Below, in pieces: positions 249-64,000 of a stretch of 64,000 nt of DNA. Source of the stretch: Imbricaverruca yamaguchii (Eukaryota; Arthropoda; Thecostraca; Neoverrucidae); NCBI GenBank assembly GCA_034440575.1, contig JAOTOL010001635.1, forward strand, positions 2,711,001-2,775,000, written 5' to 3'. The position numbers and the translations under genes are program-made. Under the pieces are notes generated by a model that saw only the letters and a program-made list of their open reading frames with translations, was not told the DNA's origin and did not search any database. The stretch's first letter is position 1; each line of letters starts with the position of its first letter.

Positions 249-288
249 GTATTTGGACACATCGACTGCGTTGGTATTGCAGCGGCAC
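249..288 (+). repeat. Relic of the 55-bp mini-element (copy F)
   Basis: Shares CATCGACTGCGTTGGT and GCAGCG, in the same order, with the better copies at 46997-47083 and 47221-47296. The 5' part is degraded and I see no convincing flanking duplication. The match is long enough to call homology but not a recent insertion. Confidence 0.45.
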
Positions 289-4378: not shown

Positions 4379-4660
4379 TCATGGTAAGCCAGGTTATTAT
4401 GAAGCCATGGTCACCCATGGTCAGCCATAGCCAGCAATGGTCAGCCAGGTCAGCCATGGTCAGCTATGGTCAGCTATGGTCAGCCATAGTCAGCCATGGT
4501 CAGCTATGGTCAGCTATGGTCAGCCATGGTCAGCTATGGTCAGCTATGGTCAGCTATGGTCAGCCATAGTCAGCCATGGTCAGCTATGGTCAGCCATAGT
4601 CAGCCATGGTCAGCTATGGTCAGCCAGGTCAGCCATGGTCAGCCAGGTCAGTCGGAAACC
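4379..4660. repeat. 10-bp satellite (ATGGTCAGCT/C)
   Basis: About 28 copies of a decamer alternating between CTATGGTCAG and CCATGGTCAG. CCATGG variants create many NcoI-type palindromes. Confidence 0.92.
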
Positions 4661-4664
4661 ATGG

Positions 4665-5379: not shown

Positions 5380-6370
5380 TCGTCTCTGCGCGTCTCTACG
5401 AACAACGGGAGGGGTGGTGACTACAGGCACTGTCCTCGCACGTCCCGTCTCTACGCACAAGGGGAGAGGAGGTGATTACAGGCATTCCCACGTACTCTAC
5501 CCACATGAGAGTGAGAAAGGTGACCACAGATACTATTCTCCCCCATCCCGTCCATTCTCCAGTAAAGCTAGCTTCTGGCGGTAGCCTTGGAGTCAAGTCA
5601 GACAGTCAAGCCACAGCTACGTGTGTTCGAACTTACCGACCACTGTCCGTCGCATCTCAGTACCTGGTACGACACGCTAAGCTGCTGAGCCGGCGTCTAC
5701 GTGCCGTTGGTAGGTCGACGGCCCTTCGTGACTGAGATGTCGGGAGTGGTGGGTCATGTGGTCCGACCATCGGTCGGCGAAATGCCGGCTCCTAGTTGGA
5801 GCCCACCTTATCTACATGTCATACATGGGAACGAGGTTACTTCAGACATTATATTTTTCCGTCTCAACCCACACGGGAGTGGGGAGGTGGTTATAGGCAT
5901 TATGCATGATGTATATTGTATATGTGTGTATGTGTGTGCGCGTGGGCATATATTGACATTTGTGTGTGCATGTATCTATGTAGACATGTGTTATATTACA
6001 TGAATATATCTTCACTTTTCCCTCATAACACATTTAAGTTAATTCACTAAGTTTCCCAGGAGTTTCTTAGTGTTACTAGCTTGCTACCTAGGTGAATGGC
6101 TTCTGGAGCTACTCCATTGGGAACATTGGGAAAACAAAATTATTCGATCCAGTCATGTCTCTACACACAGGGAAAGCAGGGATTATCATGGGAATTTCCT
6201 GGACTACAGGAACTATCCTGACCGTCCCACCGGTATGCTCAAGAGAGCGAAGGGGTGGTTGCTGGCATTGCGCTGTTCCGTTTCTACACACAAGGAAGCG
6301 AGGGGGGGGCTACTGGCATTATCATGTTCCGTTTGTGCACGCAAGTGAGTGAGGGGTAACTGCAGGCATT
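5380..6370. repeat. Degenerate minisatellite, left part (interrupted by a retrotransposon)
   Basis: Recurring block of roughly 55-60 bp: GTTCCGT or GTCCCGT, then TCTACAC or GCACGCA, then a G-rich stretch, then TGACTACAGGCATT or variants (for example near 5420-5490, 5880-5905 and 6240-6370). The same block resumes at 10260 after the retrotransposon, which shows that the array was split by that insertion. Confidence 0.6.
6358..6370. repeat. Target-site duplication, left
   Basis: AACTGCAGGCATT, identical to 10260-10272. Marks the 3' end of the minus-strand retrotransposon. Confidence 0.8.
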
Positions 6371-6662
6371 TATTTATTTATTTAACAATACATGTCCTCC
6401 ACGTGCAGTGGCTGTTACGGACAGTCTGGGCTGAACTCACAGATATTTACAAAGAAAGGATAGATGTGTGGTCAATAGTGGGAGCAGATGTGCAACAAAC
6501 ATTCGTACAACATAATACAATATCCATATCACTTTTCGCACTGCATACACCGTACTTGCGACACGAGCTATACACGAGTGGCTTGTATAAGTGATAGGAA
6601 AGCGATGGCCTAAAGGTGACTTCGTAGTGTACACATATCCATGTTGTAAGTTTTTTGTGGGA

Positions 6663-11544: not shown

Positions 11545-12374
11545 TTAACCCGTGCCGTCTTTCCTGTCAAATCTTCACACCCCGTCTCGGGGGGGGCGGT
11601 TGGAGACCCCCCTCTAAAATCCAAACTAAGCTTCGCACGAAAACGAAAAAGGTGTCATCGGAAAGCGCTCGACGAGTAGGGTCCAGGTCCACCCTCCAAA
11701 ACAATTTCCCTCCAAAAGTGACGTCATCAGGGGGCTACATTTTCACGACTTTTAACGACTTACACTACGTTTTTGACTCTGGGGAGTTCATTTTGGGGGA
11801 TATATGAAAAACAACATTTATTTTGGAATGAGAAAAGGACAGCGAAATCGACCACTGATGTAATTTTGCTTGCCCCCCCCACATTTTTGTGAAATTTCAA
11901 CATTTTGAGTTTTCAAGTTTTCCTTAATTTTCATTTTATAATGGGTAGATCAGACCGAGAAACGTTGTTGGAAGTCAACTTACCCCAATAAAAATGCTTA
12001 CTTTAGCCAGAATCCTCTATTTGAACCGCATTTTGGCAAACACGCAAAATTTATATGTAGTTAAAAAAGAAAAATGAAAAATTCAACTCGTACGTTTTGT
12101 TACATCCGTAAAGATAAGCAAACGCTGAAAGCTTCATTAAAATATCTGTATCCGTTAAAGTGTGACGACTGGTTGAACTTTTTTGGAGGTGACCTCATTT
12201 GACCTTGACTAACTCGTTGACCCTAGATGACCTGACCTAAAAACTTTGAATCAGCAAGTCAAATTGATATGGGAAAAGGTATGCCAAATTTGGGCGCGCT
12301 GCCGCGCGCCATTCGTCCGCTATCCGCGAAAAACCTGAGGGGGCGGTTGAAGACCCCGATACGGGACCGGTTAA
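11545..12374 (+). mobile_element. piggyBac-like MITE, copy 1
   Basis: An 830-bp element bounded by TTAA at 11545-11548 and 12371-12374. The left end reads TTAACCCGTGCCGTCT and the right end, read inward, TTAACCGGTCCCGT. TTAA targets plus CCC-initial inverted ends are the piggyBac signature. It has no transposase frame, so it is non-autonomous. GC-rich subterminal blocks (GGGGGCGGTTGAAGACCCC near the right end and a mirrored version near the left) flank an AT-rich middle. Homologous along its length to 20009-20846, 62512-63367 and 63507-64000. Confidence 0.8.
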
Positions 12375-19104: not shown

Positions 19105-20008
19105 ATATCCAGTACACTGACTTCCTGGCCAGGCATATAACCAATCGTTCGCTCAGTCCCGATGTAGAAAGGTTACGCGCTGCAGAGGGTGGTATTTTGC
19201 AGAGGTAATTTGGTGGGTCCAGCAATGCTAAGCGTGATGAATTCGAAGCGCATTCGGATGAACTAGTTCGCATGGCACCATGTTAAAGTATGTTATTGTG
19301 AGAGAACCTCCACTGAACAGGTCGAGTTATTCTAAATAGATGGGAAGCTCTACCTGATACGAATAGTGAAAATGAAGTTACAGTATGCAGGCTTAAGTGT
19401 CAGCTTAAGGGTAGGTCGCTGAGTCATATGTGATCACTGCAATGCAACTAAGTCCGATACAACCGTGATCTATCAGCACAGGGCACTGAAATGAGATAAA
19501 TATCGACTTCTTCTACAATTCACACAAAAATGTCAGGCCATGACATTTCAACCCTATGACTAATGATGGATTCGGCTTTACAAAAAGTGTTACGTCATCA
19601 GGTAGACAATTGATTGGGCACCCATCCTATAGAAATATATAAGAATTGGAGTTTGAAAATAAAATACCACCAAGTGGATGAAAAGTAACGGGGTCACGAG
19701 GTCAGATGTTGAATTCAGAAGACCACACCCATTTGTGTTGCATTGGGCAGATTATCCCCTTCTAAATGATAGGCTTCATAAGCTAATCCCTGCCAATAAA
19801 AATATGCTCTTTTCTCTATGAACTTTTCCATTGACCCACAAATTTCCATAAACTGTATCTCGTGACCATTGTGACCTAGAAAGTAAAATTATCCCAGAAT
19901 CCTTAGCTGTGCCGTAGATCACACTGTGCATCCGTTTTATCCAAATCTGAGGGAATGTGGTGAAAACTTTTTGGTCGATCTTGGTGATTTGTCCTGGAAT
20001 CGTCCTTT
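19105..20008. other. No gene seen
   Basis: AT-rich intergenic DNA with no supported exon or repeat array. Confidence 0.45.
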
Positions 20009-20846
20009 TTAACCCGCGCCGTCTCTCCGGTCAGATCCTCACACCCAGTCTCGTGGGGGACGGATAGTAACCCCCATCTAAAATCTAAACTAAGCGTCGC
20101 CAGAAAATGAAACAGGTGTCATCAGAACGAGCTCGACGAGTAGGGTTCGGATCCACCGGAAACAAAATTCCCCAAAAGTGGCATCACCAGGGGGCTAGAT
20201 TTTCACGATTTGTCACGACATACATTATGTTTTTGGCTCTGGGGGGGTTCACTTTCGGGGATATTTTTTAAAACTTATTTTGTAATCAGAAAAGGACTGC
20301 GAAATCGACCAGGGCCATAACATTTTTTGGCCCCCTAAGATACAATTGTTTTCATTGAAAAATTTTGAGTTTTCAAGTTTTCTTTAATTTTCCTTTTCTA
20401 ATGGGTAGAGCAGGCCGATAAACGTTGTTGGAAGTCAACTTTCCCTAATACAAAATGCTCAATTTAGCCAGAATCTTCGATTTGAACTGCAATAGGCAAA
20501 TATGCAACAATTATATGTAGTCAAAAACGGAAGAAAAAAAATCCTCTCATATGTTTTGTTTCACCACTAAAGATAAACAAACGCTGAAAGTTTCTTTAAA
20601 ATATCTGTTACCGTTGAAGCGTGAAGACTGGCTGAACTTTCTTGGAGGTGACCTCACTAGACCTTGACTAACTCGTTGTCCCTAGATGACCTGACTTCAA
20701 AATTTTGAAAAAAGCATGTCAAATTGATGTGGGAAAAGGTATGCCAAATTTTGGCGCGCTCCTCCGTGCCGTTCGTTCACCATCCACGAAAAACCTGAGG
20801 GGGGCGGTTGAAGACCCACCCTCCCCCCCGAAACGGGACGGGTTAA
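20009..20846 (+). mobile_element. piggyBac-like MITE, copy 2
   Basis: An 838-bp element bounded by TTAA at 20009-20012 and 20843-20846. The ends are TTAACCCGCGCCGTCT and, inward from the right, TTAACCCGTCCCGTTTC, a better match to each other than in copy 1. Same orientation as copy 1 and alignable throughout (shared GTCATC, GCTCGACGAGTAGGGT and ACCTTGACTAACTCGTTG). No transposase is encoded. Confidence 0.82.
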
Positions 20847-41764: not shown

Positions 41765-42950
41765 AGCCTTTCCCACGCGACCGTGGCCAGATATACCCGT
41801 CAAGCAGTGGTATGATACGCCCATGAAGCCGTGGTCAGATACACTAGTAAAACCACGATCAGATCTACCTGTGGAACAATAATCGGACACACCTGTGGCG
41901 CCGTGGTCAGACCCACCCGTGGCGCCGTGGTCAGACCCACCCGTGGAGCCGTGGTCAGACCCACCCGTGGCGCCGTGGTCAGACCCACCCGTGGCGCCGT
42001 GGTCAGACCCACCCGTGGAGCCGTGGTCAGACCCACTCGTGGAGCCGTGGTCAGACCCACCCGTGGAGCCGTGGTCAGACCCACCCGTGGGGCCGTGGTC
42101 AGACCTACCCGTGGAGCAGACCCGCCCTGGGTTTGGTCAGACCCACCCGTGGCGCCGTGGTCAGACCCATCCGTGGGGCCGTGGTCAGACCTACCCGTGG
42201 AGCCGTGGTCAGACCCACCCGTGGCGCCGTGGTCAGACCCACCCGTGGCGCCGTGGTCAGACCCACCCGTGGAGCCGTGGTCAGACCCACCCGTGGCGCC
42301 GTGGTCAGACCCACCCGTGGCGCCGTGGTCAGACCCACCCGTGGCGCCGTGGTCAGACCCACCCGTGGCGCCGTGGTCAGACCCACCCGTGGAGCCGTGG
42401 TCAGACCCACTCGTGGCGCCGTGGTCAGACCCACCCGTGGCGCCGTGGTCAGACCCACCCGTGGAGCCGTGGTCAGACCCACCCGTGGCGCCGTGGTCAG
42501 ACCCACCCGTGGGGCCGTGGTCAGACCCACCCGTGGAGCCGTGGTCAGACCCACCTGTGGAGCCGTGGTCAAACCCACCCGTGGAGCCGTGGTCAGACCT
42601 ACCCGTGGAGCCGTGGTCAGACCCACCCGTGGCGCCCTGGTCAGACCCACCCGTGGGGCCGTGGTCAGACCTACCCGTGGAGCAGACCCGCCCTGGGTTT
42701 GGTCAGACCCACCCGTGGTGCCCTGGTCAGACCCACCCGTGGTGCCGTGGTCAGACCCACCCGTGGCGCCGTGGTCAGACCCACCCGTGGCGCCGTGGTC
42801 AGACCCACCCGTGGAGCCGTGGTCAGACCCACCCGTGGCGCCGTGGTCAGACCCACCCGTGGCGCCGTGGTCAGACCCACCCGTGGCGCCGTGGTCAGAC
42901 CCACCCGTGGCGCCGTGGTCAGACCCACCCGTGGCCTACGCATATGCGGT
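41765..42950. repeat. 24-bp satellite, about 49 copies
   Basis: Unit ACCCACCCGTGGCGCCGTGGTCAG, period 24 throughout, with GCG/GAG/GGG variants and two imperfect breaks containing GACCCGCCCTGGGTTTG at about 42118 and 42684 that are themselves a higher-order repeat about 566 bases apart. Because 24 is a multiple of 3 and no frame contains a stop, five long ORFs overlap here on both strands. None is a credible gene. Confidence 0.95.
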
Positions 42951-44409: not shown

Positions 44410-46990
44410 GTTCGTCACCGCCAATGCACTGCTTTGCACACATTAATTTTGATCAGCACAAACATGTCATTCCGAAGTGCGTCAAAGCCAAACTACTATG
44501 GTTACACTGTTAGATCAGAATGTTTGCACACATCGTTAGAACTTCCCACAAAAGCGAGTGTTTCGTGCTTACACAAATATTTCGCTGGAAGTTGACAAAC
44601 AGCTTCCCTGAATATTTGGGGTCACGGTCCATTCCCACTGATAGAACAGCGCAGACTGGAAAATTTGCAATGGGCGTTCTTATTTTCTTCAAGGTGAACA
44701 TGTTCTACATATTTGCACGAAATCACTGAGTTATTTTGCAAAAAGATCGGTGAAGATGTAAGCACAACAAAATTAAAGGGAGGTAGCCCCCTTAGCTCCG
44801 TAGAAACGACAAACCTGTTCCAGGCTGCAATATCTACCCAAATTTTTCAAAAGCTGCAAAAACCGTCAACATCGCACCTATGCGTCGCGTAAAGTAAGTC
44901 CAATATTTTAATCAAGCCAGTAACTATTTTGTCACCACAAACCACGATTGGTTAGATGTATTACAATGGTTGGATCTGTTAGCCATCTGAGGATGACTAA
45001 ATAAAACTATGTGCATCGAAATCAAGTTTTATCGGGTATTTCGTATGTTGACCTGTTCTGCCGGTTCAAGCAAACCAAAGTCGGCATAGCAAGGTGTAAA
45101 CTAATGGATATCACCAAAACATGACATTGTTTCAACGAAAATAGACGAACTTCAGACTGACTAAGGCCAGAAAATATTCCTCTAAGATTGTTCGCACTCA
45201 CATCATTGTAAGTGCTTGGTTTTTAGCTTCGAAGTAAGTTCGCATCGAAGAACTTCGAGAAAAAAATGATGAATACTTTCAACAAATGTAACTTATCAGC
45301 TTAACAATTTCAACATTTAAGATTAGTTGGAAAACAAACAAGGCGCGGTGTTGGCACGTTTCAGCACAGACCGAGGGTGGACACCGCCCAAGTATCAACC
45401 GCTGCTAATTCGTAAGATATGAGCAACACCTGATTCAAGTCGGTTAATCATCTGACCTCGTTCTGTATTTAAGTGGGTTAAGTAGTGACTTCCAAGCCAT
45501 GTCTTGGAAGTCAGATCTCTCAACATGATACAAATTTATATTCTCAGAATATGCACGAAGTGGCAGATCTTCGGTGTGAACAAAATTATTTTTTCATTAA
45601 AATATTCGAACAATGCAAGGACCTGCAAGGAAATCAACTGGTGGAAAACTCCTTATTCTCATTTCTGTGCAAATTCAGGAATGGCGCAGGCTGGCGCGAA
45701 CGTCTATTCTGGTGTATGGTTGAACTACCAACCAATGTCAAATACTGGCTGTTTATATTTCCGTAAAAGGCTACGCAGACTACGTAAGCTCACTCGCCAG
45801 GACTAAACAAAGCCATGCAATATGCGTGTTTGTCTTGCATGTAACTGAAGCTGCTCTTCAATATAACGAGCGATGTACCCGATGTAACGAGCAAATCCTC
45901 AACATTCAGCGATTGTGACGCCACTAAAGTGTTGCTCGCGGTTGCTAGGCAACATAATTATATAAATAAATTGTGAAGCATGAACAGGAGAGGACATTTT
46001 CATTATACATTTCTTTCCTAAAAATGTTAAACGTTTAGGCAAAAAATAGCTCAATAAGTACCACAAATTGTAAGGAAAGTACCACAATTTCGTTTCATGT
46101 TGAGATGTAGGGCTTCCGAGCTTTTCACTCACTAAAATCAGCTGTAGCAATATTTTGTTATTTTGGGAGGACCACATAGCGATGAGTTTGACAGTCTCCA
46201 TACTTTTTGAATGGGAAAACCCTACCCAATATCTATATAGCCTGGCTCAAACCTATTGTGTAATCGGCGTTGCTGAAAAAAAAATGTCCGAACATGTTTT
46301 TCTTGCTGAATACTTCTTCAGTCTTATCGCGTAAGGCAGCGGCGAATCAGGTGGAAGAAAGCAGTCCTCAAGGCGACGGAAAGCGGATTTCTGATTGCTT
46401 GATTGTATATACCGCATAACTAAATATTTTGAATTCCGTAATCCTCAAAATAAATCTGCAATCCTGAGGAAATTGTACAATCATAATGGCATATCGGTTA
46501 GGCGATATTCAGTTCGATGTTTCACTGATCTTTTGCACTGGACATTGGTAGATAATTCCACATATCCCCAGTTTTTCATTCATTGCGACTGGCCCTCACA
46601 AATTCCAGTGGTGAACTCCGCAGGGCTTTACGTTAAACCTCAGGGGTGTTCGGCATGATTGAGGGGTGCACATGCACAACTATACGATGATCCACCGATG
46701 GCACCAGGCCAAATGGCGGATCTTATGACTGGCGCAGCATCGGCACCAGTTAATTGTATAAAAAATCCCGTGATTCACTGGCCTTCCAAAACTGCTTCTG
46801 GTGAGGTTCATCAACAAAATGTCGGAGATCGAAATACTTGTACGGATATTCAGTCACAAAGAAATCAAAAGTGGCATGGCCCGGGTAAACATATCATTGA
46901 CAATGAACCTCACAAACGGTAAACGCGACGCTTTTTGGCAATTAAAACTGGGAGACATCAAAAGTTCATCAAACATAAACGGATGTCTTC
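44410..46990. other. No gene seen
   Basis: AT-rich intergenic DNA with scattered short ORFs and no recognised motif. Confidence 0.45.
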
Positions 46991-46996
46991 AAAGAG

Positions 46997-47083
46997 AATT
47001 TCAGTGAATGGTTGATTGGTTATTTGGGCTTTCGGGCGCATCGACTGCGTTGGTCATACAGCGCCCATAATTTCAGTGAATGG
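46997..47083 (+). mobile_element. 55-bp mini-element, copy A, with target duplications
   Basis: AATTTCAGTGAATGG occurs at 46997-47011 and again at 47069-47083, extendable to 22 bases with one mismatch. Between them lie 57 bases ending GGGCGCATCGACTGCGTTGG then TCATACAGCGCCCAT. GGGCGC and GCGCCC can pair. Its 5' half is the most diverged of the good copies. Confidence 0.75.
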
Positions 47084-47219
47084 GTGATTGTTTAAAGTTT
47101 GCATATTACGATGAAATGGATCATACTCACCGTAAAAGATCGCGTATTAGTTCCCTTAATTCAAAAGAATGCAATTACAAGACTACCAAAACAAGTCTTC
47201 TTGGTAGTATTCAAGCCGT

Positions 47220-47296
47220 GTTTGACTACCTTGGTTGGCTATTTCAGCTCAGGACGCATCGACTGCGCCGGTCATACAGCGCCCAGTTCGACTAGC
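47220..47296 (+). mobile_element. 55-bp mini-element, copy B
   Basis: GGTTGGCTATTT at the left, then CGCATCGACTGCGCCGGTCA and TACAGCGCCCA. The flanks GTTTGACTACC and GTTCGACTAGC match at 9 of 11 positions, a decayed duplication. It lies about 150 bases from copy A. Confidence 0.65.
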
Positions 47297-47299
47297 TTA

Positions 47300-48480
47300 C
47301 TACATCCAACAATCAACTGCAATGCCATGGCCGACATTAAGAGAAGCAATAGTCTCACTACGCCCAATTGATCACAAGCATGTCTGCACTAGCTAATTAC
47401 GCCGACTTTCCAGCAAACTGACTGGAACCGATTACAAAGTGTCGATACTGATTGATGAAGTAAGATCACGTATGGGGACATTGGGAACTCCATGATGTAG
47501 AATATTGTTTGATGTGGTAATGCATACTAAAATATATAATGTGGGGCATCAATCATATTGTTTTGTGGAAAACAAGTCAGTCTGTAATGTGACATGTGAG
47601 TAGAATTAGTTGCTTTATTTTAAGGCAATCTATTCCATTTGCTGCCGCCCAGCACAGACCAGTTATAACCATCGGCATGAATAATTACCCTCAACAGGCT
47701 GCTGGAAACCATGATAATACTGACATTTGGGATCAAAGAAAGCAACCTCCTGATCATATGCACCAAATAGGCGATATTTCAAATTTGAAAGGACGTTTCG
47801 GCAAGCACACCTGCAACGTCGTGAAGTATGCCAACATAGTTTAGCTTAATGACTGAAAGCCATCATGGGTATCACGCGTGTCTTCACTACGTTCACTACG
47901 TGAGAGCCGAGCCCTGCTGTCGCCACCCCGCTTACTGTTTCAACGTCTACAGTGAGCTGCAACAGATCACGGTGAGAGTACTGTCACTGCACTAACGATG
48001 ACTAGAGTCGTCAAATACTGGCTGATTGAAGACTAGCATAACACAGCCGGGGCTCAGCAGTGAGGCCGAACATCACGCACGACACAGCTGCGTGTGACGC
48101 ACACGGCTGAGGGTGAGTGGAGAGACCGCTCGGCACCGATCATAGCACAGCCAGAGCCTTTCGGCGGAGCTACGTGTGCCGCATAAGGCAGACTAGTTAC
48201 TGGAGACTGTTCGACACCGATCACTCCACCGGAGACTTTACGGCCGAGCTAAGTGTGGCGCACACGGCTGATTAGTTACTGAAGAGATGCCTCGACACCG
48301 ATCACGCCACAGGAGACCTTACGGCCGCGTGCACCATCCGCATACCACATACAACGCACACCACCGATCAGCGCTGCTCACATGTGTAAGTGGGGCAGGG
48401 GGACGGCTGCCGCACAGAACACCCACCCGTCCACCGGGACGTGTCACCTCGCCACACGACGCCGCTCAGCTGCTGCGAGA
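47300..48480. other. OSCP1 3' flank, no further gene
   Basis: Probably contains the 3' UTR of the minus-strand OSCP1 gene. The nearest AATAAA on the minus strand is at 47619-47614, rather distant. Short CACCGATCA-type repeats occur at 48130-48310. Confidence 0.35.
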
Positions 48481-48482
48481 CG

Positions 48483-48642
48483 TCACTCGGCGATGGCATC
48501 CATCATGTGCAGCAGGTCGGGCTGGTCGCCGGCCGCCTCGTCCAGCGTCATGTCCTGCAGCACACGCTCCAGGTGCTGGCTGAGGCCGCGTGTCGCCACC
48601 ACGGCCACGCCCGCCGGCTCCTCCTCGTCCGCGGACACGTCA
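48483..48642 (-). CDS. OSCP1: OSCP1, last coding exon
   Basis: Acceptor GTCTGTGCAG (AG at 48644-48643). Encodes DVSADEEEPAG (acidic), LSQHLERVLQDM and the conserved end DLLHMMDAIAE, then TGA at 48485-48483. Confidence 0.9.
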
Positions 48643-50694
48643 CTGCACAGACAGTCGTCCGGTCACAACTGGTGCCACCGACCACGGCGCGGCTACACGT
48701 CCCCGCCGCAGTCCGGCTTGGAGGTCGGCTAGGCACAGCTGGAGTTCAAGGGCGCATCGACTGTCGGCTAGGTACAACACTCCACCCCAGTCACTACTGT
48801 GGAGGTCGGTCCAGAACACCAAGGCACTCCGCTCTGCTGTGGGGACCGGCCCGATACACACCTCACCCTGCGCCTGCTGTCGGGTCGGTCCGGTACGCCC
48901 TGCCCTTGTTGTGGAGATCTGCTCAGCACATCCCGCCGGTACACCACCCACCCCACCCCTGCTGTGGGGTCGGCCCGGTACACCCCGCCCCTGTTGTGGT
49001 AGGGCCGTCACACCCCACCTTTACACCGGCAGGGCCGGCACACCACCTTTACTTGCGTAGGGCCGGCCACCCCCGTGCTGCGGTAGGGTCCGGTACACCC
49101 ACCCCCGCTGCGGAAGGGCCGGCACACCCCACCCCTGCTGCGGTAGGGCCGGCACACCACACCCCTGCTGCGGTAGGGCCGGCACACCCCACCCCCGCTG
49201 CGGTAGGGCCGGCACACCCTACCCGCCTCTGCGGTAGGGCCGGCACACCACACCCCTGCTGCGGGTCGGCCCAGTACACCTCGCCCATACACCGCTTACC
49301 CCGCCCCGGCTGTGGAGGTCGTGCCGGGCAGAGTGAGCCGGAACTCGCATTTCTGGGTGGTCTGGCCAATCAGCTGGGCCAGCAGTTGGAGCGCTTCCGC
49401 GGCGTCCGGCGCGGGTGCCGGCGCTGGCTCGACGCCCGGGACGGACTTGGAGGGCTGGGCGGTTGGTCGGGGGGCGACCGACACAACCTCGCCCTCTCTG
49501 CTCTGGTATCTGGCACACAGATCATCAAATGAGCGAGAGATCACCAATACACCTGCGCCAAACACAGTGTAATATTCCATAAAATGGTTCAAACTGAAGT
49601 GAGCGTTACTCCGAAGGTGCAGGGGCTATATGCAAGTCCAGGTGAGTAAGGCATATACAAGGGTGCTTCGCCGTTGGACACGGAGTGGCGACAAACTGGC
49701 GATGAACAGGCAACTGCCCCATAGCCCCTTCTACAAACGTATTTCGCGAGAGGACATCTTGGACTCGTGAAGATATCGCAACAAAAAAAGGACTTTGTTT
49801 GTAGTGGGACGATTCTTAGTAGCTTCAGTTGTTCACTTACACTACATACTCAGTCATGTCTATGACAGCGAGAGGTCAGCAGTATGGCAATGACACGAGA
49901 GGTCAGCAGCATGGCAATGACAACACAAGTCTTAACAGAGCCATTCAAACACTTGGCGTGCTCCAGTATTGGCAATTTATGTATAAACGAATTTGAAGGT
50001 ATTTACACATTGTTAGTGTTGGTAATTGTGTTTGAGAGGAGGTCGAGGCAACTCACATGTTAGTGCCGAGATGTGTGGCTCGGTAGCCGTCCCGCGCCAG
50101 TGAAGCAGGCTTCAGCGGTTCGCTCAGTGGCTCCATACACGGGTAGCTCGAGGAGCCATTGATTTCTCCGTGCTCGTCAAAGCTGACGATGTTTCCAGGC
50201 TTGGCGACGCCTAAGGCACGCGAACGCATAGGTAACGCCATGCGTTCCGGTCACAGCTGAGGTCTTATAATAGGCCACAACCTGTGCTATGCCCATTACC
50301 AAGAGGCCGACACGGAAGTCACTGCTAGAGAGCTTTCGAACAAGCACGCATAGCGTGTTGCAAGGGCGTCATCGCAATAGTAATAACTCCAGTGTGGATG
50401 TGTGCACCTAAGAAAGCTCTCGTGTGCAATTCTGAACGAATACGCAAAAAAAACAGTCGCACTTGGAATGCACTACACTCCTCAAAAGGAATGTACACCT
50501 ATTTCAAACAAAAGGCAGACATATTTTACAGATATTTCCCAGACGCCTCCACTTTCATTACACCATTAACGATGAACAGAAGATGCACAGTAGCACACAT
50601 CACTAAACTGCCAGCGACTTTATTGTGATACATATATCAGATCAATATGTGAGATCTCAAGGACCTGCATTTAAAACCACATTTGGAAATTGCA

Positions 50695-50776
<82 letters not shown>

Positions 50777-53700
50777 CATATACACATAAACATATACAAA
50801 CATACATCTCTGTGTGTGTGCGCACGTGTGTGTGTGTGTTTATAGAGCATGTGAATGTGCATAGTTTCCTCTTGGAGACGTGTAATCCACGAAGATCAGG
50901 CATTTGTGCGGATCGTCGCGCAGTGACTACTGTACTATTTGTTGGAAGGGCATCAAGTCCTCTGCTCTGGCATGGAGGTTAGAAGGGCAGTGCAAGGTGA
51001 CCACACTTTAAAACATATGGCAACTGAGATACTATAACCCGGTGATAAATGCTATGTGGGAATATAAAAACAGCGAACAATTGAACACACTACTTTCTCA
51101 ACATAGGCGAGTGACCTGCTTGATTGCGGATCAGCTAGTAAAACATCAAATTTTGCGTGCAAAAAAACGTGCATCTTGAGCACTCCTTACCTTCAGGCAA
51201 TGGCCCCGAAATGTCGATAACGAAAAGGCCGTTGGCATTCTGCAGCTTCTCCTTCAGGAAGATGGAGACCTTGACGCGATAGTCGAGGAAGAAGTTTAAC
51301 ATTTCGTACCGGATGTCCTGCATCTCGCCAGCAGAAACGCCACCAAACGACTGCGCAACATGCGACGGTTCCATTAGACGACGCAACTTGTGTTCACACA
51401 TGGAAGACGATCAATGCATGGATGTACCTCACCGCCAACATAGATATGATTTTGGGATGAAAGGAGAATCTGTTAAATGAGTAGCGACTGAGAATTTTGC
51501 AAACAGCGACGGCTTGGAGGACGAAGGGCTGCAACCCCCTCTCCCAGGATTGCCGTAACATACTTCATGATGCAAATAGGACGTAGTTATATGCAAATAT
51601 GCTAAGATACCGGACATACATTTAGGATACACATTGGAATCGGTTGTCGAAGCTTTGATGGGAAAGTATGGTCATTTTGTGTTTTGTAGCTGATCACATT
51701 AAAAGACACGCCTTGTCGAGGAAAAGCGGCACAAGGAACTTTAAAAGTCCCTGAAAGGTGAATATTGTGTCGCCAAAAAAGGAACAAAAATATAATGCAT
51801 GTATCTTTTAAACATGCACAAATCATTGCCAAACATGGTGGAACAAAATTAGCATGCCATCGAAGATGGCCTTGGATGAGGCCATCATTGAGAAAATTGT
51901 AGACATCGAAATCTTCCGCATAAAAATGAACGTACGCTGGAGGTGCAGCGGGACGTTTCATACAAAGGCTACACAAATATTTTTCAATGGCAGGTGTGTT
52001 CCTATATATTCATGGATGAGTGTAAACTACCCATATTTTGCCATAACATACCAATCATACCAGATAGGACCGATGCATAGCCCAGTGGATCCAGCCGAGA
52101 AAGAAAGCTGGAGCCAACGAACAGTGACACTAGTCACTAGCAATTGAAATCAACACTCCAAAATCTCTACCCGAGGGAAGCCGCCCACATCGCAAAACAT
52201 CATACTACCAAAACCAATGGAAAGAGAGACATGTAAAACCACAGATACTTGCCCTCCTCCCATGTCGATCAGTACCGCGAGTGCATAATAATGCAGCAAA
52301 CCAACCAGGCCATACCACGAATAGTAACACCCTTTTTGCAACACAGGTTGCAGTCGTTAGAGTTAGCGACGTGAAATTCCAATGCAGCGCCCCGGCAGTG
52401 CCATAGTGACGTCATGTTGAACGGAGCTTTTAGCCCACCGACTCCACCCCTACGCCGGCCGACAGTTGAGAGCGGAAAGCATAGTCTCGGTTGTTGGTGC
52501 CCGGGGAGGAAGCCAAAACGGAGGTTTCAACGCTGATATATTGTAGTCCATCGGTGCAAAGCGGGCGCGTGAAATGGGTCAAATGGTCGCTCGCGAACCG
52601 ATCCTCGCAAAATGTCGAAGGGCTAACACTTCGCTGGCAACAAACACGCCGCCAAGAGCCGAAACTGATGACGGTGTGTTGATGGAAGCTGGTACCGAAA
52701 TACGCCACTCCCCAGGACTGGTTAAATTCCCCAACCACCGGTCACCAGCGCGCGTGAACTGGCGCGGCAATGTCTGCTTTAGCCGCAAATTAAACGTTCC
52801 TGCATAGCATGCATTCATAGCATGGCTGGGAGTTTTGCCATCAACCTCGGTTTTACTGGATTTTTATACTGATAAAAGCAGACATGCTAAAAGCTGTCCT
52901 CACCAGTTTTTACTGGTAAGTGTCCTGCAAATATTTTACTTAATATATTTTCTACTCAAATGTATATGACATGCTATTTGTATGCCTAGCAGTGTATCAC
53001 GTACCACAACTATTTTTTTTTATTTTAAAAATTTAATTGGGGGTGACTTGAAACCAGGGTTCATTACAGAGCTGTTGCGTGAACCCTGGCCCCACCCCCC
53101 AACCAAAAAACCCCACAACGGCGAAGAAAGTTTAACGGCCGCCAATGACCGACCGGCTACGGCCTCAACTGCTAATGCGCCGAGCTCACCCTGTTTGCCG
53201 TACAGGGAGACCGGCGTCTCACTGAGCTACCAAGTTTGATATGTATATGTATATAATGCATATACATATCAAACTTGGAGCTGAAACACACAGGAAGCAT
53301 AAACATGGCACAACTATTTCTTTCTGTTCTTATAAGTCCTTTACCAATTCATGCCCGTTTGTACCGGTAGGGGCTGATTATCACGACTAAAACTAGGTTT
53401 TCTCGGTAAAACCCCGACCATGGTCGATACCCGTTTCCCCGTTACCCGGCGACGGTTCCCATCGGTATGCCCGCCTACTGGCCCCGAGCCGTTGGTGCAG
53501 CTGCAGGACACCGGTCGCCACCCACCTGAACGAACAGGTCGCACGTGGAGTCAACCTGGCGCTTGACGCGCGGCGCCGTCGCGTAGCGTGCCATCTGGTC
53601 CAGGTGGTTAAGCGTGATCATCACCAGTTGCTGAGGATGGGCGCACTGCTCCAGCTGGTACTTGAAAACCATCACCATCAGGTCGTACAACTGCCGGTAC

Positions 53701-55648
53701 GATTACCGCCAGCGCGGTCAGGTCACGTCTACGTGACACAGTCGGTGCGCGGGTCACACAAGTGGACCGCTCAGATCGGGGTAGTAGTGAAAACGCATAT
53801 GATCAGAGAAAAATGAGGGAAACCAAGGCGGCCTGCCCTGTTCGTCTGTTTGACCCGTCTAGCCGGCAGTGAGAATGCAGAGTCGCACCTCATCCAGTGC
53901 TTGATGAACGAATGGGATATATCTAGTCGAAATTATAATGAATTTGTGGGTTGGCTGGCTATTTTGGCTTAGAGGCGCACCGACTGCTTCGGTTATACAG
54001 CGCCCAAATGAATTTGTGGGACCCAACCTTGTCTATTATATGCTATACTCAATATATCCGTCAGTCACAGTCACACAGTCCGTGCCGGACTTGGGACTTG
54101 TTCACTCATGCATTGCTATGGTATGCTTGTGGGAACACGCACCGTTCATGTTGGGAAATTATAGCGCGCGACGGCACAATAGCCACCAAAAATAGGCGCG
54201 GTATTTGTGGACATGTTCGAAAATGCCACAACTCCGCCTGCGAAGCCGCACCTTGTCCATGCTGGGCTTGTTGAGTCGCATGATGGAGCTGTGCGCCAGT
54301 CGGTAGAATATGGTGCGCAGACCGTGCGCCGAGTACAGAGGCTGCGGTCGGAACAGCTCCTCGATGAAGCGACCCGTACACATCAGCCCGATTATGTCGT
54401 CCAGAACTGCGGCAGGCGCAGGGTTTGACGCGCGACGTGCCGACTGCTGCCCGATTGGGGGTGTGTGGTGACCGTCTGTCAGAACGTCGACGCTGCTTCC
54501 CCCCCCACAGATCACCAACGGCGCAACGACCACGACGCCGAAAACCCCATGTAAGGGTGGATTCAAAATACGGGAATGCAAACCAGCGATCACCAGAAAC
54601 TGGCTCCCTTTTTGACGTGCTGCTGCTAGCTATCCAGCACGGACAAAAAATAAGCAGGAATACTGCACGGGGACCACAGGGGCATGCACCCTTCGTGATT
54701 CCGGCCTGGATTCGTTCCTGCCAGGTATGTAAACCGAACCCAGATTCAACAATTGTAGCCTTAAACAGGGCATAACACTAATGATACCTGGCCTGTAGAT
54801 AATGGCTTTTCACCTTACCAGGCATGGAGGTTAGCCTCACCTCCGTGATGCATTGTTGCACACAAGTGCATGCACATGCGCACACTCACGCGCATCAGTG
54901 TAAAATAGTTGACCATGTGGCCTGGAATGTCACAGTTAATGGAATTGTACTATTTCATCCTTGTCTTAGGTTTTTACCATTTTGCCACACGTGTGGGGAG
55001 TCATTATACACACGACTGCTAACTAATGTAAAATGCATGTGACTGAAGTGAAAGGCATTCCGCTTTTTAATCCTTAAGTGGCGATCCTTTATTTTCTTCC
55101 AATTCCAATCTTTCACTATCCCCAAGCAACTTCTTTCTTCATCCACACAGTTAATGGTGAAGTAATTTTAGGACACTGACGCGCATACACAAATGATGCC
55201 TGATATGCCCCAATTCTTGCAATGGAGTAGTTTAAGCTCTAAGACCTTATGGCAAGCACTTCAAGATGATCAGTACAGCGATCGGCCGTGCCACATTACT
55301 ATTCATGAGAACAATAGTCTGATACTGACAGGGCTGTAGATTGATCCCCTCCAATGGATGATGGCTGTTTTTATGACACGTCGTCCACTGAGTCATGTAG
55401 CGTCGCCAATCTCTCACGCCGATTTGCCGCGGGCGAAGAGTGGCGACAGGTGAGACTTAAACTCACACTCTTTCAATTGTGAGTCAGGCAGCTTACCCAT
55501 AGACTAATTGCCCCACCCCAATGGATGAAAACCCACCTCTTTCTGACTTTCCTGTCTCAATTTCTTGAGCTCTGAGCCGCTGGTCCAGAATGTAGAGCAT
55601 CTCTCCTCCCATGTTCAGGAACAGCAGAGGCATTGCCTTCAGCGACAT
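48483..55648 (-). CDS. OSCP1: OSCP1, organic solute carrier partner 1 (whole gene)
   Basis: Seven coding exons on the minus strand, in transcript order: 55648-55537, 54406-54252, 53690-53526, 51350-51191, 50210-50057, 49509-49300 and 48642-48483. All introns are GT-AG, every phase fits, and the sum is 1116 bases (371 residues plus stop), close to the usual length of about 375-380. Diagnostic family blocks are all present: PLLFLNMGGEMLYILDQRL near the start, FIEELFRPQPLYS, RLAHSSIMRLN, YDLMVMVFKYQ, GGVSAGEMQ, LLHMMDAIAE at the end. Known role: a cytosolic/ciliary protein linked in mammals to organic solute transport. No transmembrane segment is visible. It runs convergent to the chaoptin-like gene. 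Confidence 0.93.
48721..48779 (+). repeat. Possible truncated mini-element (copy E) in OSCP1 intron 6
   Basis: GTCGGCTAGGCACA (48725) and GTCGGCTAGGTACA bracket about 25 bases that end GGGCGCATCGACT, the central block of the family. Only this short block matches, so chance or partial conversion remains possible. Confidence 0.3.
49010..49290. repeat. 30-bp minisatellite in OSCP1 intron 6
   Basis: About nine copies of CCCCTGCTGCGGTAGGGCCG followed by GCACACCCCA, with related CTGTGGGGTCGG variants extending back to about 48830. Confidence 0.9.
49300..49509 (-). CDS. OSCP1: OSCP1, coding exon 6
   Basis: Acceptor ATCTGTGTGCCAG, donor GGCGGG|GTAAGC. Encodes YQSREGEVVSVAPRP, a Pro/Ala linker, then LLAQLIGQTTQ and FRLTLPG. 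Phase 2 to phase 2. Confidence 0.88.
50057..50210 (-). CDS. OSCP1: OSCP1, coding exon 5
   Basis: Acceptor CGTGCCTTAG, donor AACAT|GTGAGT. Encodes VAKPGNIVSFDEHGEI and ends in the family block LGTN. Phase 1 to phase 2. Confidence 0.88.
50699..50774. repeat. TA dinucleotide microsatellite in OSCP1 intron 4
   Basis: 38 uninterrupted AT/TA units, followed by imperfect TG repeats at 50805-50845. Confidence 0.95.
51191..51350 (-). CDS. OSCP1: OSCP1, coding exon 4
   Basis: Acceptor TGTTGCGCAG, donor GAAG|GTAAGG. Encodes SFGGVSAGEMQDIRYEML, VKVSIFLKEKLQNANG and ISGPLPE. Phase 0 to phase 1. Confidence 0.92.
51400..53020 (-). other. OSCP1 intron 3, left part, nothing seen
   Basis: Intronic DNA without recognised repeats or exons. 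Confidence 0.5.
53030..53280 (-). mobile_element. tRNA-related SINE candidate with palindromic end
   Basis: On the minus strand TTGGTAGCTCAGTGAGAC (about 53233-53216) is a near-perfect pol III A-box region of tRNA type. Small hairpins follow (GAGAC/GTCTC, CCCTGT/ACAGGG), then further left a 10-bp stem at 53054-53063 / 53080-53089. Immediately next to the A box is a perfect 20-bp inverted repeat, 53230-53249 with 53259-53278, around a 9-base loop. A clear B box was not found. It lies in OSCP1 intron 3. The calling as a SINE is an inference. Confidence 0.4.
53526..53690 (-). CDS. OSCP1: OSCP1, coding exon 3
   Basis: Acceptor CGTACCGGCAG, donor TTCAG|GTGGGT. Encodes exactly 55 codons, LYDLMVMVFKYQLEQC through VDSTCDLFVQ, phase 0 to phase 0. 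Confidence 0.93.
53937..54020 (+). mobile_element. 55-bp mini-element, copy C, perfect target duplications
   Basis: AATGAATTTGTGGG occurs at 53937-53950 and 54007-54020, a perfect 14-bp duplication. The 56-base insert starts TTGGCTGGCTATTTTGGC, contains TTAGAGGCGCACCGACTGC and ends TTCGGTTATACAGCGCCCA. TGGCTTAGAGG fits the pol III A-box pattern, but there is no B box. It lies in OSCP1 intron 2, opposite in orientation to the gene. Confidence 0.85.
54252..54406 (-). CDS. OSCP1: OSCP1, coding exon 2
   Basis: Acceptor GCGCCTGCCGCAG, donor GACAAG|GTGCGG. Encodes VLDDIIGLMCTGRFIEELF, then LYSAHGLRTIFYRLAHSS and NKPSMDK. Phase 1 to phase 0. Confidence 0.93.
55440..55515 (-). mobile_element. tRNA-derived pol III SINE head
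   Basis: On the minus strand an A box TAGTCTATGGG (55506-55496) matches TRGYNNANNNG exactly, and 33 bases later a B box GTTTAAGTC (55462-55454) differs from GWTCRANNC at one position, with a T-arm stem GTGAG/CTCAC around it. The acceptor and anticodon stems do not pair properly, so this is not a functional tRNA. It sits in OSCP1 intron 1, only about 20 bases from the exon 1 donor. Confidence 0.5.
55537..55648 (-). CDS. OSCP1: OSCP1, first coding exon
   Basis: Start ATG at 55648-55646 (MSLKAMPLLFLNMGGEM). A splice acceptor, GTTATCCAG (AG at 55654-55653), lies just upstream, so a non-coding 5' exon is expected to the right. Donor AGAG|GTGGGT; phase 1 out. Confidence 0.92.
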
Positions 55649-55659
55649 TGTGCTGGATA

Positions 55660-57740
55660 ACAATACATCGGGTAAATACGATAAAATTAGTAGAATAGTA
55701 CTAAATATGCTGCAACAAAGTACCATGCATCACTTTATTGGAACCAAACGCAAGCAACATGAAGGCCAATAGAAAACATAAGGACATGGGCCATCCCTTG
55801 CCAGCCTGCATGGTACAACTAGGGGAAGAGGAGAACAAAGGAGAAAGCAGAAGGAGATGCTATATGAGAGGAGGAATCATAGCAGTGTCCTGAAATTGAT
55901 CTTCATGTAGGGTGAAGGGTAATTTCAAAGAAGTTAACTGATGTAAAAAGGTGTTAATGTGTATGCATAATGCATCTTGATGACTTACTTTCCATGGCCT
56001 TTGTTCATTGTTTGGTAATGGTGGTGATGTCAGTAGTGTATCTGTTGCCTTCACCAGTTGGAAATGCTGCTGCAAGAATCAATCACACTTTTGAAGATGC
56101 ATATATCACTCATAGCCTGTAGCAAAAATGTAAAATGGCATCTAATGTGAAAAAGAAATAGGGGTGGCAAAAATAGCTGTCATAAATAACTAGTGTGAGT
56201 ACCACAAATTTTAGAATGTGAGGGCACTGAAAACACACATTTACCAAAGTTCATCTGACGTACCCTATGGCAAGAATGCATGCATGTTCAAGGAAATCCA
56301 ATGGAATTGATACTATCTCATACCAACACATACTAAAACAAGATGTTCTGCACAGTTGAAATTTGTCCTGCCAATAGCAGCATCACTGCCCTAACATAGG
56401 TGCCTTGGTGGAGAAACAAGCTCTCAACAGTCTCTTCCAATGTGGGGGATGGTGTCTGCCATCTGGTTGATTGATTGTGTGCAGGAAGTGCTGTGAACAA
56501 ATAATTCAAAGTACTGGCCAAACACATAATTATCTGGTTACACCACTCCTACACAGCATCTACAAGTTGGCAGTCATCATCCCCCAAATCAGAGGCAACA
56601 CTGTTGAGGGGTTTTTCTCCACCTAGGCACCTATGCTATGACTCTATTAACACAACCAATCTCAACTTTGCAGGACATCTTGTTTTACATGTTGGTTTGA
56701 GTGTACCTATTCATTTTGATTTCCTCAAACAGGCATTCAAGTCCATTTCAAGACACTGATGGGTGTTCATGTCATCTCAATCACATTCATATAGGTTGCA
56801 TTGGAACAAACAATTCCAACAATTGACAGAACCCATGAAAGCACAAAAATTCCCTTTTTGTGCACTTTCCAGTAATTTGTTGTGGAGGACAGCAAGTACC
56901 TGCATTGGTTAAACAAAAATTATTGGTGTTATTTAATTGCATATGATATGAATGATGTTAATGTTCTTCGCTTGGAGAAGTAACTGTTGAGATATAAGTA
57001 GTTGAACTTAAAAAGATAGGCTTGACCCAGATGCATCCCTGTGGCTCATATTAAGCTCAGACACTGTATGAATATATAATTTTGATGCATATATTTCAAA
57101 AACTTTTCAATTATGGAAGACATGAATATCAATATCATTCAAACTGTACCAGGAAACTTCAGAAAACCAATTATTGACCAAAAATTGGCCTTGGGCTTCT
57201 AGAGATTTACCTGAATTGCTTGTATACAAATCAGTTTTCATACTGCCAACAATAATGCATAAAAATGTATGCATCTAAATGAGAGTAGACAACATTGGAA
57301 AAACATTTTATACCACCAATTGGGCTATTCCATATATTTGTTCATTCTTGGCATATATTTCCAACAAGCTGACAAGCACTCACTTGCATCAGGAATCAGT
57401 CATCACATCATTTTAATAACATTAAGAAATGAGCTCTTACAATATTTTTATATAAATGCCATATCACAACTAAAATAAAAATTTACCAAAACACAACCTT
57501 ACACCCTCTACCCTAATTTATCCACCCTCTCCTTTTGCTCCAGCATTAATCTGGTGACGAAACACATGTTGCAAATGCTCTAGCCTGCAATATCAACATG
57601 ATTTCATTTCACTATGCCACAGATAATAGCAAGGACCACAAAAGCTAAACTTCAGTTCCTTTTGTACCTAAGCAGACAATTATCATCAGTCTGTGGTAAA
57701 GTAAGCACAATAATATTTGAAACCACTGAAGAATGTGCTA
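55660..57740. other. AT-rich region upstream of OSCP1, no gene supported
   Basis: Notably AT-rich compared with the left half of the window. Scattered coding-like minus-strand fragments (for example 56333-56527) have no recognised motif and are separated by stops. They may be an old transposon. Confidence 0.35.
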
Positions 57741-57843
57741 TGGAAGGCGTCATGTTGCAATATTTGGCACTGATTCCCAAAGAGGTAGAAAACAGATACA
57801 GAAAATAAAGCCTGGTAAAGCCACTGGACCAAACAATATATCT

Positions 57844-58668
57844 GTTAGGATCAGGGATGCGGAGACAGGAAATTTTTAGACGGCTCCGGCTCCGACTCCG
57901 GCTCCGGGGAAGTATCCCGGATCCGGCTCCGGCTCCGGGAAAAATGTGCCGGCTCCGGCGGCTCCGGCTCCGTACATCCCAAACGTGATCGATCCATTAA
58001 GTAAGAGCTAGGGTGGGAGTAAAAAAAAAAGTTAGCCGCGACCACTTAGAGGCACAAACTTCAGACAATCATAAGCAACTTTCCCACACAAACCCTGTAT
58101 ATATCTTTAAATAAACACCCTCCCCTCCCAAATCACTTTTCGGAGTTATGCCCTCGTAAACTGACGCTCGTTTCGTGCCGTATTGGAGCAATCAGAAGAG
58201 GGGAGACTGGAACAACACTCCCCATCCTGTGAACGGTCCAAGGAACATCATTGTTGTAAATTGGAATGTTTGACCTCATCTCTAATAAGGTACAACAACC
58301 CATCGATGATGGAAACAATGAACTTAACTAAACTAAGCATGGAACTATTACATTGACTTCTGAGGGTAGAATACATTTATTGGTTATTCTACCATTATTT
58401 GATGATATTTCTACATGTTACTCGTATTTAAACATGTTTTATTTTAATGTGTTTTCATACCATACCACACCATACTAGGTATAATGTGTTCATTTGACAT
58501 TTGCAAATGTTGTTTAATTTACAAATCTTTCAGAGTCGGAGCCACCCTGCTTTCGACAGCTCCAGCTCTGACTCCAGCTCTGAGTAAAATGTCCCTGTGG
58601 CTCCGGCTCTGGCTCCGGGCAAAATGTGCTGGCTCTGGCGGCTCCGGCTCTGCATCCCTGGTTAGGAT
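57844..58668. mobile_element. hAT-like non-autonomous element with 8-bp target duplication
   Basis: GTTAGGAT at 57844-57851 and 58661-58668 flank an 809-bp insert (57852-58660) whose ends are CAGGGATGCGGAG and, inward from the right, CAGGGATGCAGAG. An 8-bp duplication and CAGGG-initial ends are typical of hAT elements. Both ends carry runs of the hexamer GGCTCC/GGAGCC. No transposase is seen. The interrupted RT frame is restored exactly at the duplication, which confirms a real insertion. The left 130 bases are themselves bounded by inverted ends, so it may be compound. Confidence 0.78.
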
Positions 58669-58933
58669 CTTAAAAGTTTTGTAATATTTTGCAGTTTCTC
58701 TAGTTATAATTTTCAGGTGGTCTTTTGAGTACCTGAAGGTTGGCTAAATGCAAATGCAGTACCAATTTTGAAATCAGGAAGTTAAAAGGGTGTAGTAAAC
58801 CACAGTCTGATGCATAACTTCACCAATTTGCAAGGTAGGAGAAAGTTGGTCAAGGAGAATGTTCAGACTCATCGTATAGGCACAATGTTTTAAGGGAATG
58901 GTTCTGGATCTAGGAAGCCTTGCTTAATGAACC

Positions 58934-59008
58934 TGCTGGAGTTGGTTGGCTATTTTGGCTTAGAGGAGCATCAACTGTGATGGTCATACAGTGCCCATTG
59001 CTGGAGTT
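58934..59008 (+). mobile_element. 55-bp mini-element, copy D, inside an RT relic
   Basis: TGCTGGAGTT at 58934-58943 and 58999-59008 flank a 55-base insert starting GGTTGGCTATTTTGGCTT, then AGAGGAGCATCAACTGTG and ATGGTCATACAGTGCCCAT. Removing insert and one duplication restores the RT block NLLEFMEYE, so the pre-insertion site is known. Its GGAGC...GTGCCC ends show base changes relative to copies A-C. Confidence 0.85.
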
Positions 59009-62511: not shown

Positions 62512-63367
62512 TTAACCCGTCCCGTCTCAGGGTGGGGGGTCTTCAACCGCCCCGCCCCCTCAGGTTTTTCGCGGATAGCGGACTAACGGCGTGAGGCAGC
62601 GCGCCTAAATTTGACATGCCTATTCCCATATCAATTTGACACGCTGATTCTAAATTTTTAGGTTAGGTCATATAGAGTCAACGTGTTAGTCAAGGTCAAG
62701 TGAGGTCACATCCAAAAAACTCTAACGACTGGTTGAAAACCAGTCGTCACGCTTTAGCGGATACAAATATTGTAATGAAACTTTAAGCGTTTGCTTATCC
62801 TTACGGATGCAACAAAACGCACGAGTGGAATTTTTCATTTTTTTCGTCTTTGGCTACATGTAAATTTTGCGTCTTTGCCAGATTGTAGTTCAAATACAGG
62901 ATTCTGGCTAAAGTAAACATTTTTTATTAGGGCAAGTTGACTTCCAACAACGTTTCTCGGTCTACTCTACCCATTGGAAGAGGAAAATTAAAGACAATTT
63001 GAAAACTCAAAATTTAGACATTAAAAAAAAAATTTTGGGGGCAAAAAAAATGTAGCCCCGGTGGATTTCGCTGTCCTTTTCTCATTCCAAATAAATTTTG
63101 TTTTTATGTATCCCAAAAATGAACTCCCCAGAGTCAAAAACATAAATTCGTGTCAAAAACATAAGTCGTGAAAATTCGTGAAAATCGAGCCCCTGGTGAC
63201 GTCATTTTTGGGGATTTTTTTTTTGGAGGGTGGACCCGGACCCTACTCGTCGAGCGCTTTCCGATGACACCTCTTTCGTTTTCGTGCGATGCTTGGTTTT
63301 GATTTTAGAGGGGGTCTACAACCGCGACGGGGTGGGAGGATTTGACCGGAAAGACGGCGCGGGTTAA
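62512..63367 (-). mobile_element. piggyBac-like MITE, copy 3 (inverted)
   Basis: An 856-bp element with TTAA at 62512-62515 and 63364-63367. Reverse orientation to copies 1 and 2: its right-end block (GGGTCTTCAACCGCCCC) lies at the left. Alignable along its whole length. Confidence 0.8.
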
Positions 63368-63506
63368 ACAACGCGCCGGCCATTTATTAGCAGGTACACA
63401 AACAACGGCGTAAATCGGCAGGTAAAATCTGGAGGTATCTACGAAAAACCGGAGGGGTGAGCGGATTTGTCCCCCCCCCCCACCCCCCAGCCCTCCAGGG
63501 CGCGTG

Positions 63507-64000
63507 TTAACCCTGTTATCTCTCCTGTCAGATCCTCACACCCCGTCCTGGGGGATAGATGTAGACCCCCCTCTAATCTCCAAACTGAGCGTCGCACGAA
63601 AACGAAATAGGCGTCATCGGATAGCGCTCGAAGATTAGGGCCAGAGACCACCCCCAATTTTACCCCGAGAAGTGATGTCACTAGGGGCCCTAGAGTTTCA
63701 CGACTTACATAATGCTTGTGGCTCTGGGGGTTCACTTTGAGTGAGATTTGAAGAAGAAAAATTGAAACAGAAAAGGAAAACGAGATCGACCAGAAACATA
63801 CAATTTTGTTGATTTTTTTTTACAAGCTTAAGTTTTCAAGTTTTCTTTAATTTTACATTTCCAATGGATAGAGCTGATTGAAGAAAACAATATTGTTCGG
63901 AGTCAACTTGCTCCAATACAAAATGCTTGCTTTAGCTAGAATATTTGATTTTAACTCTAATGGGCAAAATGTGAAACTGATTAGTAATCAAAAACGGAAA
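63507..64000 (+). mobile_element. piggyBac-like MITE, copy 4, cut by the window end
   Basis: Starts TTAACCCTGTTATCTC and follows the family through CAGATCCTCACACCCCGTC and GCGTCGCACGAAAACGAAA. Its left end faces the left end of copy 3, 140 bases away. Between them (about 63440-63500) is a decayed right-end fragment (CGAAAAACCGGAGGGG). Confidence 0.75.

Follow-up and report, generated by a model that had tools for sequence, protein, structure and literature searches.

The 3'-terminal stem-loop of long interspersed nuclear elements is dispersed on its own, probably by retroposition, in Imbricaverruca yamaguchii

Results

A stretch of 64 kb from the 767-Mb, 1430-contig genome of Imbricaverruca yamaguchii (GCA_034440575.1, contig JAOTOL010001635.1, positions 2,711,001 to 2,775,000), referred to here as the window, contains four copies, A to D, of a sequence of 55-57 bp flanked by target-site duplications (TSDs). 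An earlier note on this DNA had presented these copies as a family of ultra-short mobile elements, perhaps of an undescribed kind. They were found instead to correspond to the 3' terminus of long interspersed nuclear elements (LINEs) of the same genome, a module made of a stem-loop and a simple-repeat tail, and are probably copies of that module inserted alone by target-primed reverse transcription (TPRT). The copies and their flanks are positioned in the window as follows.

47012..47068, minus strand: copy A, LINE 3' module in hairpin-only form; its 5' end lies at 47067/47068 and its tail on the 47012 side
46997..47011: perfect 15-bp TSD on the tail side of copy A
47069..47083: perfect 15-bp TSD on the 5' side of copy A
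47231..47285, minus strand: copy B, hairpin-only LINE 3' module; nhmmer profile and covariance model
47220..47230: TSD of copy B, tail side; decayed, below the score limit of the flank-repeat test
47286..47296: TSD of copy B, 5' side; decayed
53951..54006, minus strand: copy C, hairpin-only LINE 3' module; genome search, flank-repeat test and covariance model
53937..53950: perfect 14-bp TSD on the tail side of copy C
54007..54020: perfect 14-bp TSD on the 5' side of copy C
58942..58997, minus strand: copy D, hairpin-only LINE 3' module; profile and covariance model
58934..58941: 8-bp TSD on the tail side of copy D, or 58934-58943 with the TT common to the insert end included
58999..59006: 8-bp TSD on the 5' side of copy D, or up to 59008 with the TT included
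249..288, minus strand: possible module relic, weak; nhmmer E 1e-3

All four copies are present where they had been described: each is matched at E < 1e-17 by a four-copy profile, which was fitted to them, and at E 8e-12 or better by a covariance model that has B and D among its 28 training rows. The site-specific flanking repeats hold for A and C and, in decayed form, for B, while the 10 bp claimed for D shrink to 8 bp unless the shared TT is included. Relics had also been proposed at 249-288 and possibly 48721-48779; the second gives a profile match at 48744-48764 (nhmmer E 0.03) that is weaker than the first, neither is matched by the covariance model at E <= 1, and neither is counted as a module.

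Searching the assembly with copy C gave 41 matches, with 40 of 527 first-look candidates scored, and the loci of all 41 were taken (40 loci), together with 20 further 10-kb stretches at round coordinates in large contigs, which are arbitrary rather than random. Exact copies of the 33-base hairpin of variant type I number 715 in the assembly and those of the 34-base hairpin of type IV number 325, the reversed-pattern control giving 0 for both. The profile has 77 matches across the collected loci (copy C of the window counted once), of which 58 span its full length, and these 58 are mostly best matches to copy C and are biased to young copies. A direct repeat is present at both ends of 47 of the 58, compared with a mean of 1.0 and a maximum of 3 when the flanks were shuffled (20 reshufflings). 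Among the 11 that remain, four are LINE-attached modules (L014, L042_5052, L047_2807 and L056), L003, L016, L019 and copy B show a weak repeat below the limit, and L022, L032_7592 and L046 have neither a repeat nor an explanation. TSD length is 10-17 bp in 43 short copies with a good repeat, plus two at 21 bp, the ceiling of the length search; these two are most likely both copies of locus L057 with duplicated flanks. In L057, two type I copies lie 226 bp from each other and their flanks are identical, indicating local duplication after insertion. The search and the tabulated duplications confirm a dispersed unit of about 56 bp with fixed ends and TSDs particular to each site, and the GGCGC/GCGCC stem and the suggestion, already made from the window alone, that the unit is retroposed are supported as well. 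Two words of the element had no match in viral contigs.

An empty site is available for one copy. L026 interrupts the RNase H region of a LINE and is flanked by two copies of a 14-mer (one mismatch) that is single in the related LINE copies L047 (3941-3954) and L049 (518-531), which demonstrates insertion because these relatives carry the uninterrupted site.

The arbitrary stretches, totalling 200 kb of which 2,500 bases read N, were used for an estimate of abundance. The covariance model detected 27 modules in them at E < 0.01, 14 of which are its own training rows: 8 are hairpin-only and have a clear TSD (against 0.65, and at most 3, when the 22 non-attached modules were shuffled 100 times), 5 are attached to LINEs, 5 belong to a short interspersed nuclear element (SINE) derived from a tRNA, and 9 are unclassed. 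A profile-based count in the same stretches gave 23, comprising 9 short, 5 attached and 9 unclassed (control 0.56, maximum 2, 50 shuffles), and the 9 short copies taken at face value correspond to about 35,000 genome-wide, with an interval of 12,000-58,000.

The two ends of the unit differ in character. On the TTGG side, copies vary in the kind and number of simple repeats (AACC, CCA, AATC and AACT units on the minus strand), and the opposite end is fixed. Several copies that lack a repeat beside the fixed end continue there into a longer sequence common to loci. Read on the minus strand, this longer sequence codes for the C-terminal portion of LINE proteins, so that the minus strand is the sense strand. 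The sense-strand anatomy is TGGGCGC-hairpin-CTAAGCCCAAATAACC(AACC)n, a stem-loop and a simple-repeat tail, with a leader of CTAAGCCCAAATAAC or similar between the two. The orientation first assumed is thereby reversed: the supposed fixed 3' end CAGCGCCCA is the 5' end, the supposed GGTTGG 5' end is the variable simple-repeat 3' tail, and the A-box-like TGGCTTAGAGG is the tail leader CCTCTAAGCCA read on the complementary strand. A tRNA-derived 5' half was dropped once the sense strand had been set in this way, and ARAGORN found no tRNA within the window. Rfam returned no family at gathering score in the window and four chance-level matches at a relaxed threshold in 46900-47400. The Pol III promoter of a SINE was not seen either, the sense strand having no A or B box when read by eye (no box search was run). 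At L046 (9830-10000) the tail of a module has expanded to a AACTAACC array of over 100 bp.

The stem-loop spans about 33 nt and has two helices, outer GGGCGC/GCGCCC and inner UGAC/GUCG, so that the region in which GGCGC and GCGCC had been proposed to pair is borne out as the stem of a hairpin. Conservation of the structure was assessed on 28 rows of short, LINE-attached and tRNA-SINE modules, aligned without reference to structure. Across the ten pairs, 93.6% of cells are paired, both partners are changed in 15 cells compared with 3.7 in shuffles (reached by none of 500), and shifting the partner by 1-3 columns cuts pairing to 31-53%. Related rows inflate this covariation: two outer pairs have four double changes apiece, a number that fits the four tRNA-SINE rows. 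With the tRNA-SINEs left out, an alignment of 29 rows gives a weaker signal of 7 cells against 2.6, reached by 2 of 500 shuffles. A conserved stem-loop with compensatory changes is thus found ahead of the repeat tail in the 28 rows and, less strongly, in the 29-row set. G-U pairs, used as a test of orientation, gave no signal outside one pair (6 sense versus 9 antisense cells).

A query with the 3' untranslated region (3'UTR) of one partner, LINE#1, for which 40 of 733 first-look candidates were scored and 12 loci cut out, placed the module at the end of the 3'UTR in 12 of 12 loci, after ..ATTGTTA or a close variant and ahead of downstream sequence that differs. One of these, L063, is the L014 locus itself, L069 is internally deleted and L065 has a damaged first strand. 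L068 is a LINE#1 with a large internal deletion that fuses 5' and 3' parts, possibly a non-autonomous deletion form. Three further LINE lineages end in the module: LINE#2 (L045, L043), L040 and L042. L047 encodes an endonuclease (6104-6982) and a reverse transcriptase (RT; 4625-5356), and RNase H is detected at E 2.2e-9 in L049, which continues the L014 copy, and weakly, below the curated cut-off, in L047 (3615-4427) and L045. The domain order of AP-type endonuclease, RT and RNase H (L047, L049) agrees with membership of the I group, which we take to comprise I, Nimb, LOA and kin and to be marked by that order. Zinc knuckles in ORF1 of L047 were read by eye and have no Pfam support. The tRNA-derived SINE, which has A- and B-box-like stretches, ends in a related hairpin at the following loci.

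L048 3080, L043 1680, L032 2794, L048 5223, L041 6369; also L063, L067, L069, L074: tRNA-derived SINE with LINE-like 3' hairpin

The window has a LINE of its own at 6663-9889 on the minus strand, with intact-looking RT and endonuclease open reading frames. It is unrelated and not of the hairpin type, and was rejected as the partner, given that a TAAA repeat, and no hairpin, follows its 3'UTR near 6382. The earlier note had named, as a result that would count against it, copies that prove to be pieces of a longer element with the same flanks. By origin the units are pieces of a longer element, though not in the sense intended, because each short copy was inserted separately, has TSDs of its own and begins at a sharp 5' end.

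The start of the short copies was located relative to the T before the stem. The distance from the TSD to this T is 0 nt in 28, 1 nt in 11, 2 nt in 3 and 3 nt in 1 of the 43 short copies, in a search that allowed up to 6 nt and a set whose selection for full-length matches favours uniform starts. The same start is used by type I, CCA-tailed (L013, L047_4208), type IV (L048) and ACTAC-type (L035) short copies, and other starts were found only as longer LINE copies or decayed pieces. Short and attached forms also match lineage by lineage: LINE-attached L040 is 0.95 identical to short L013, LINE-attached L042 is closest to short L048 (0.85), and the LINE#1 module of L014 equals short L004, L012 and L017 letter for letter over 56 matched bases. 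From these sequence comparisons, repeated shedding by several LINEs appears to fit better than one self-copying SINE. The LINE#1 bases TGTTA precede the hairpin in at least 51 of the 715 exact type I copies, a lower bound for attachment because mutated or other-LINE upstream bases are missed, and the hairpin-only form outnumbers the LINE#1-attached form. Type IV looks like a very young burst, with the 39 non-query matches among 40 scored (1927 first-look candidates) being 97-100% identical over 66-74 bp.

Other features of the window include a leucine-rich-repeat (chaoptin-like) gene of arthropod type, for which the best relatives with a name are proteins of insects, a repeat of about 0.8 kb dispersed in copies of 72-83% identity (11545-12356, 20008-20846, 62512-63368 and 63507-63999), and a long minisatellite array open in several frames (41777-42935). 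For another host protein, the single named one among five relatives is from a barnacle (46% over 23% of the query). Elsewhere in the assembly (G000), the 405-kb contig C996 carries at 270910-272247 a COI frame that needs the invertebrate mitochondrial code and is either a nuclear copy or an assembly join.

Discussion

The short units derive from LINEs, carry TSDs, begin at a sharply defined 5' end, fold into a covarying structure and occur in forms that belong to more than one LINE lineage. Taken together, these features make it probable that they are 3'-terminal LINE modules inserted alone by TPRT, with the border of the stem-loop as their 5' end. ORF2 binding of the tail stem-loop has been published for zebrafish ZfL2 LINEs, as has a need for it in retrotransposition of LINEs other than those described here (PMC4176376), and the 3'UTR is described as required for R2 and SART1 (PMC4176376, PMC3747384). 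By analogy, we infer that a LINE protein, presumably ORF2, would bind the stem-loop here, that priming would occur at a nick whose ..GG-3' end pairs with CC in the tail, and that copying would stop where the stem-loop has its outer (5') border. Either LINE RNA would serve as the template after being trimmed or cut as far as the hairpin that the protein covers, RNA decay halting there, or the RT, or refolding nascent cDNA, would abort synthesis at the stem border. The structure that recruits the RT would in both cases also fix the 5' end, and several LINE lineages would yield promoterless copies of one class, about 56-60 bp long. In the 43 copies, 15 TSDs start with CC and 7 with CA, as would follow from pairing of the tail CC with a primer that ends in ..GG; part of this may reflect ambiguity between tail and TSD. 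Single-sequence folds, made without controls, of five LINE 3'UTRs gave no common stable structure just upstream of the module, which would speak mildly against a separate roadblock.

Several observations weigh against this account. In the arbitrary stretches, 9 of 27 modules could not be assigned to a class, the plus-strand folding energies of the window copies are ordinary, few LINE copies entered the comparison of short and attached forms, and L042 is identified as a LINE by a C-terminal protein match at E 8e-4. LINE#1 copies flanked by TSDs are truncated about 290-310 nt before the hairpin (L067, L069, L070), and with lengths of 60-290 nt outside the survey, the short copies could form the extreme of a wider range of lengths.

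The strongest alternative, itself unlikely, is an independent minimal SINE, that is, short RNA genes consisting of the LINE tail only, with their own transcription and borrowed LINE machinery. The excess of hairpin-only over LINE#1-attached copies, the burst-like type IV and the sharp 5' end, which is usual for a gene, would all agree with it, as would a 3' tail shared with a partner LINE and TSDs of variable length. However, neither the reading of the sense strand by eye nor ARAGORN in the window provided the promoter boxes or tRNA of such a gene, the start point coincides with the stem border, and several LINE lineages have short counterparts that begin at one point, a pattern that a single SINE lineage would not produce.

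Ordinary 5' truncation, by which the short copies would be the lower end of a broad distribution of truncated LINEs, is improbable as their source. Such truncation is also ongoing in this genome, because L067, L069 and L070 are truncated and have TSDs; varied truncation points are normal for LINEs, with lengths of 100-1,000 bp given in PMC3747384, and the short copies do consist of a LINE 3' end flanked by TSDs. Their 5' ends, however, do not vary, all 43 of 43 clear-TSD copies lying within 0-3 nt of one point, and this structural start point recurs in several lineages. A miniature inverted-repeat DNA transposon, suggested by short, numerous and duplication-flanked copies, can practically be dismissed, since TSD length varies rather than being fixed, the ends compared by eye show no terminal inverted repeats, one end is a variable simple-repeat tail and the module is the end of coding LINEs.

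Insertion of the LINE module alone leads to a broader proposal, which we hold with slightly better than even confidence: that these units are distinct, promoterless minimal retroposons, in which the stem-loop would both pick the RNA and stop the copy, shed by several LINE lineages in tens of thousands, and that about 56 nt is the smallest TPRT-mobilised unit in nature. This would suggest a natural lower size limit for LINE-driven retroposition, and would offer a sharply defined product with which to ask what sets LINE 5' ends, RNA decay at a bound hairpin or an RT stop. A single origin would also follow for the short repeats, thousands in number and unannotated, that carry a simple-repeat tail. 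Such repeats are probably missed by repeat libraries, which rarely retain units of so few bases.

Recognition of LINE tails by the RT, SINEs with a LINE tail, and truncated LINEs are already known. Searches of the open-access literature brought up no abundant class that consists of the tail stem-loop by itself and has the stem-loop border as its 5' end, most subscription journals being outside this scope. The closest parallel is with the stringent-type LINEs UnaL2, ZfL2-1 and ZfL2-2, which likewise end in a 3' stem-loop followed by short repeats and whose stem-loop is kept by compensatory change and is common to a SINE (PMC4176376, PMC3747384); there the stem-loop tails a longer LINE or SINE RNA, and hairpin-only genomic copies are unmentioned in the accessible parts of these sources. 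The tRNA-derived SINE of the same genome shares a related 3' hairpin and a CCAATAACC-type tail, but has a tRNA-like body with A- and B-box-like stretches that the short unit lacks. Truncated LINE copies share the LINE 3' end and the TSDs, whereas the truncation point of the short unit is uniform within 0-3 nt and lies at the stem border. Finally, the tailless retropseudogenes of tRNAs and tRNA-related SINEs are, according to PMC3747384, also very short retrocopies of RNA fragments, probably moved by LINE RT; they have no 3' tail, whereas in the units described here the 3' tail module is all that is retained.

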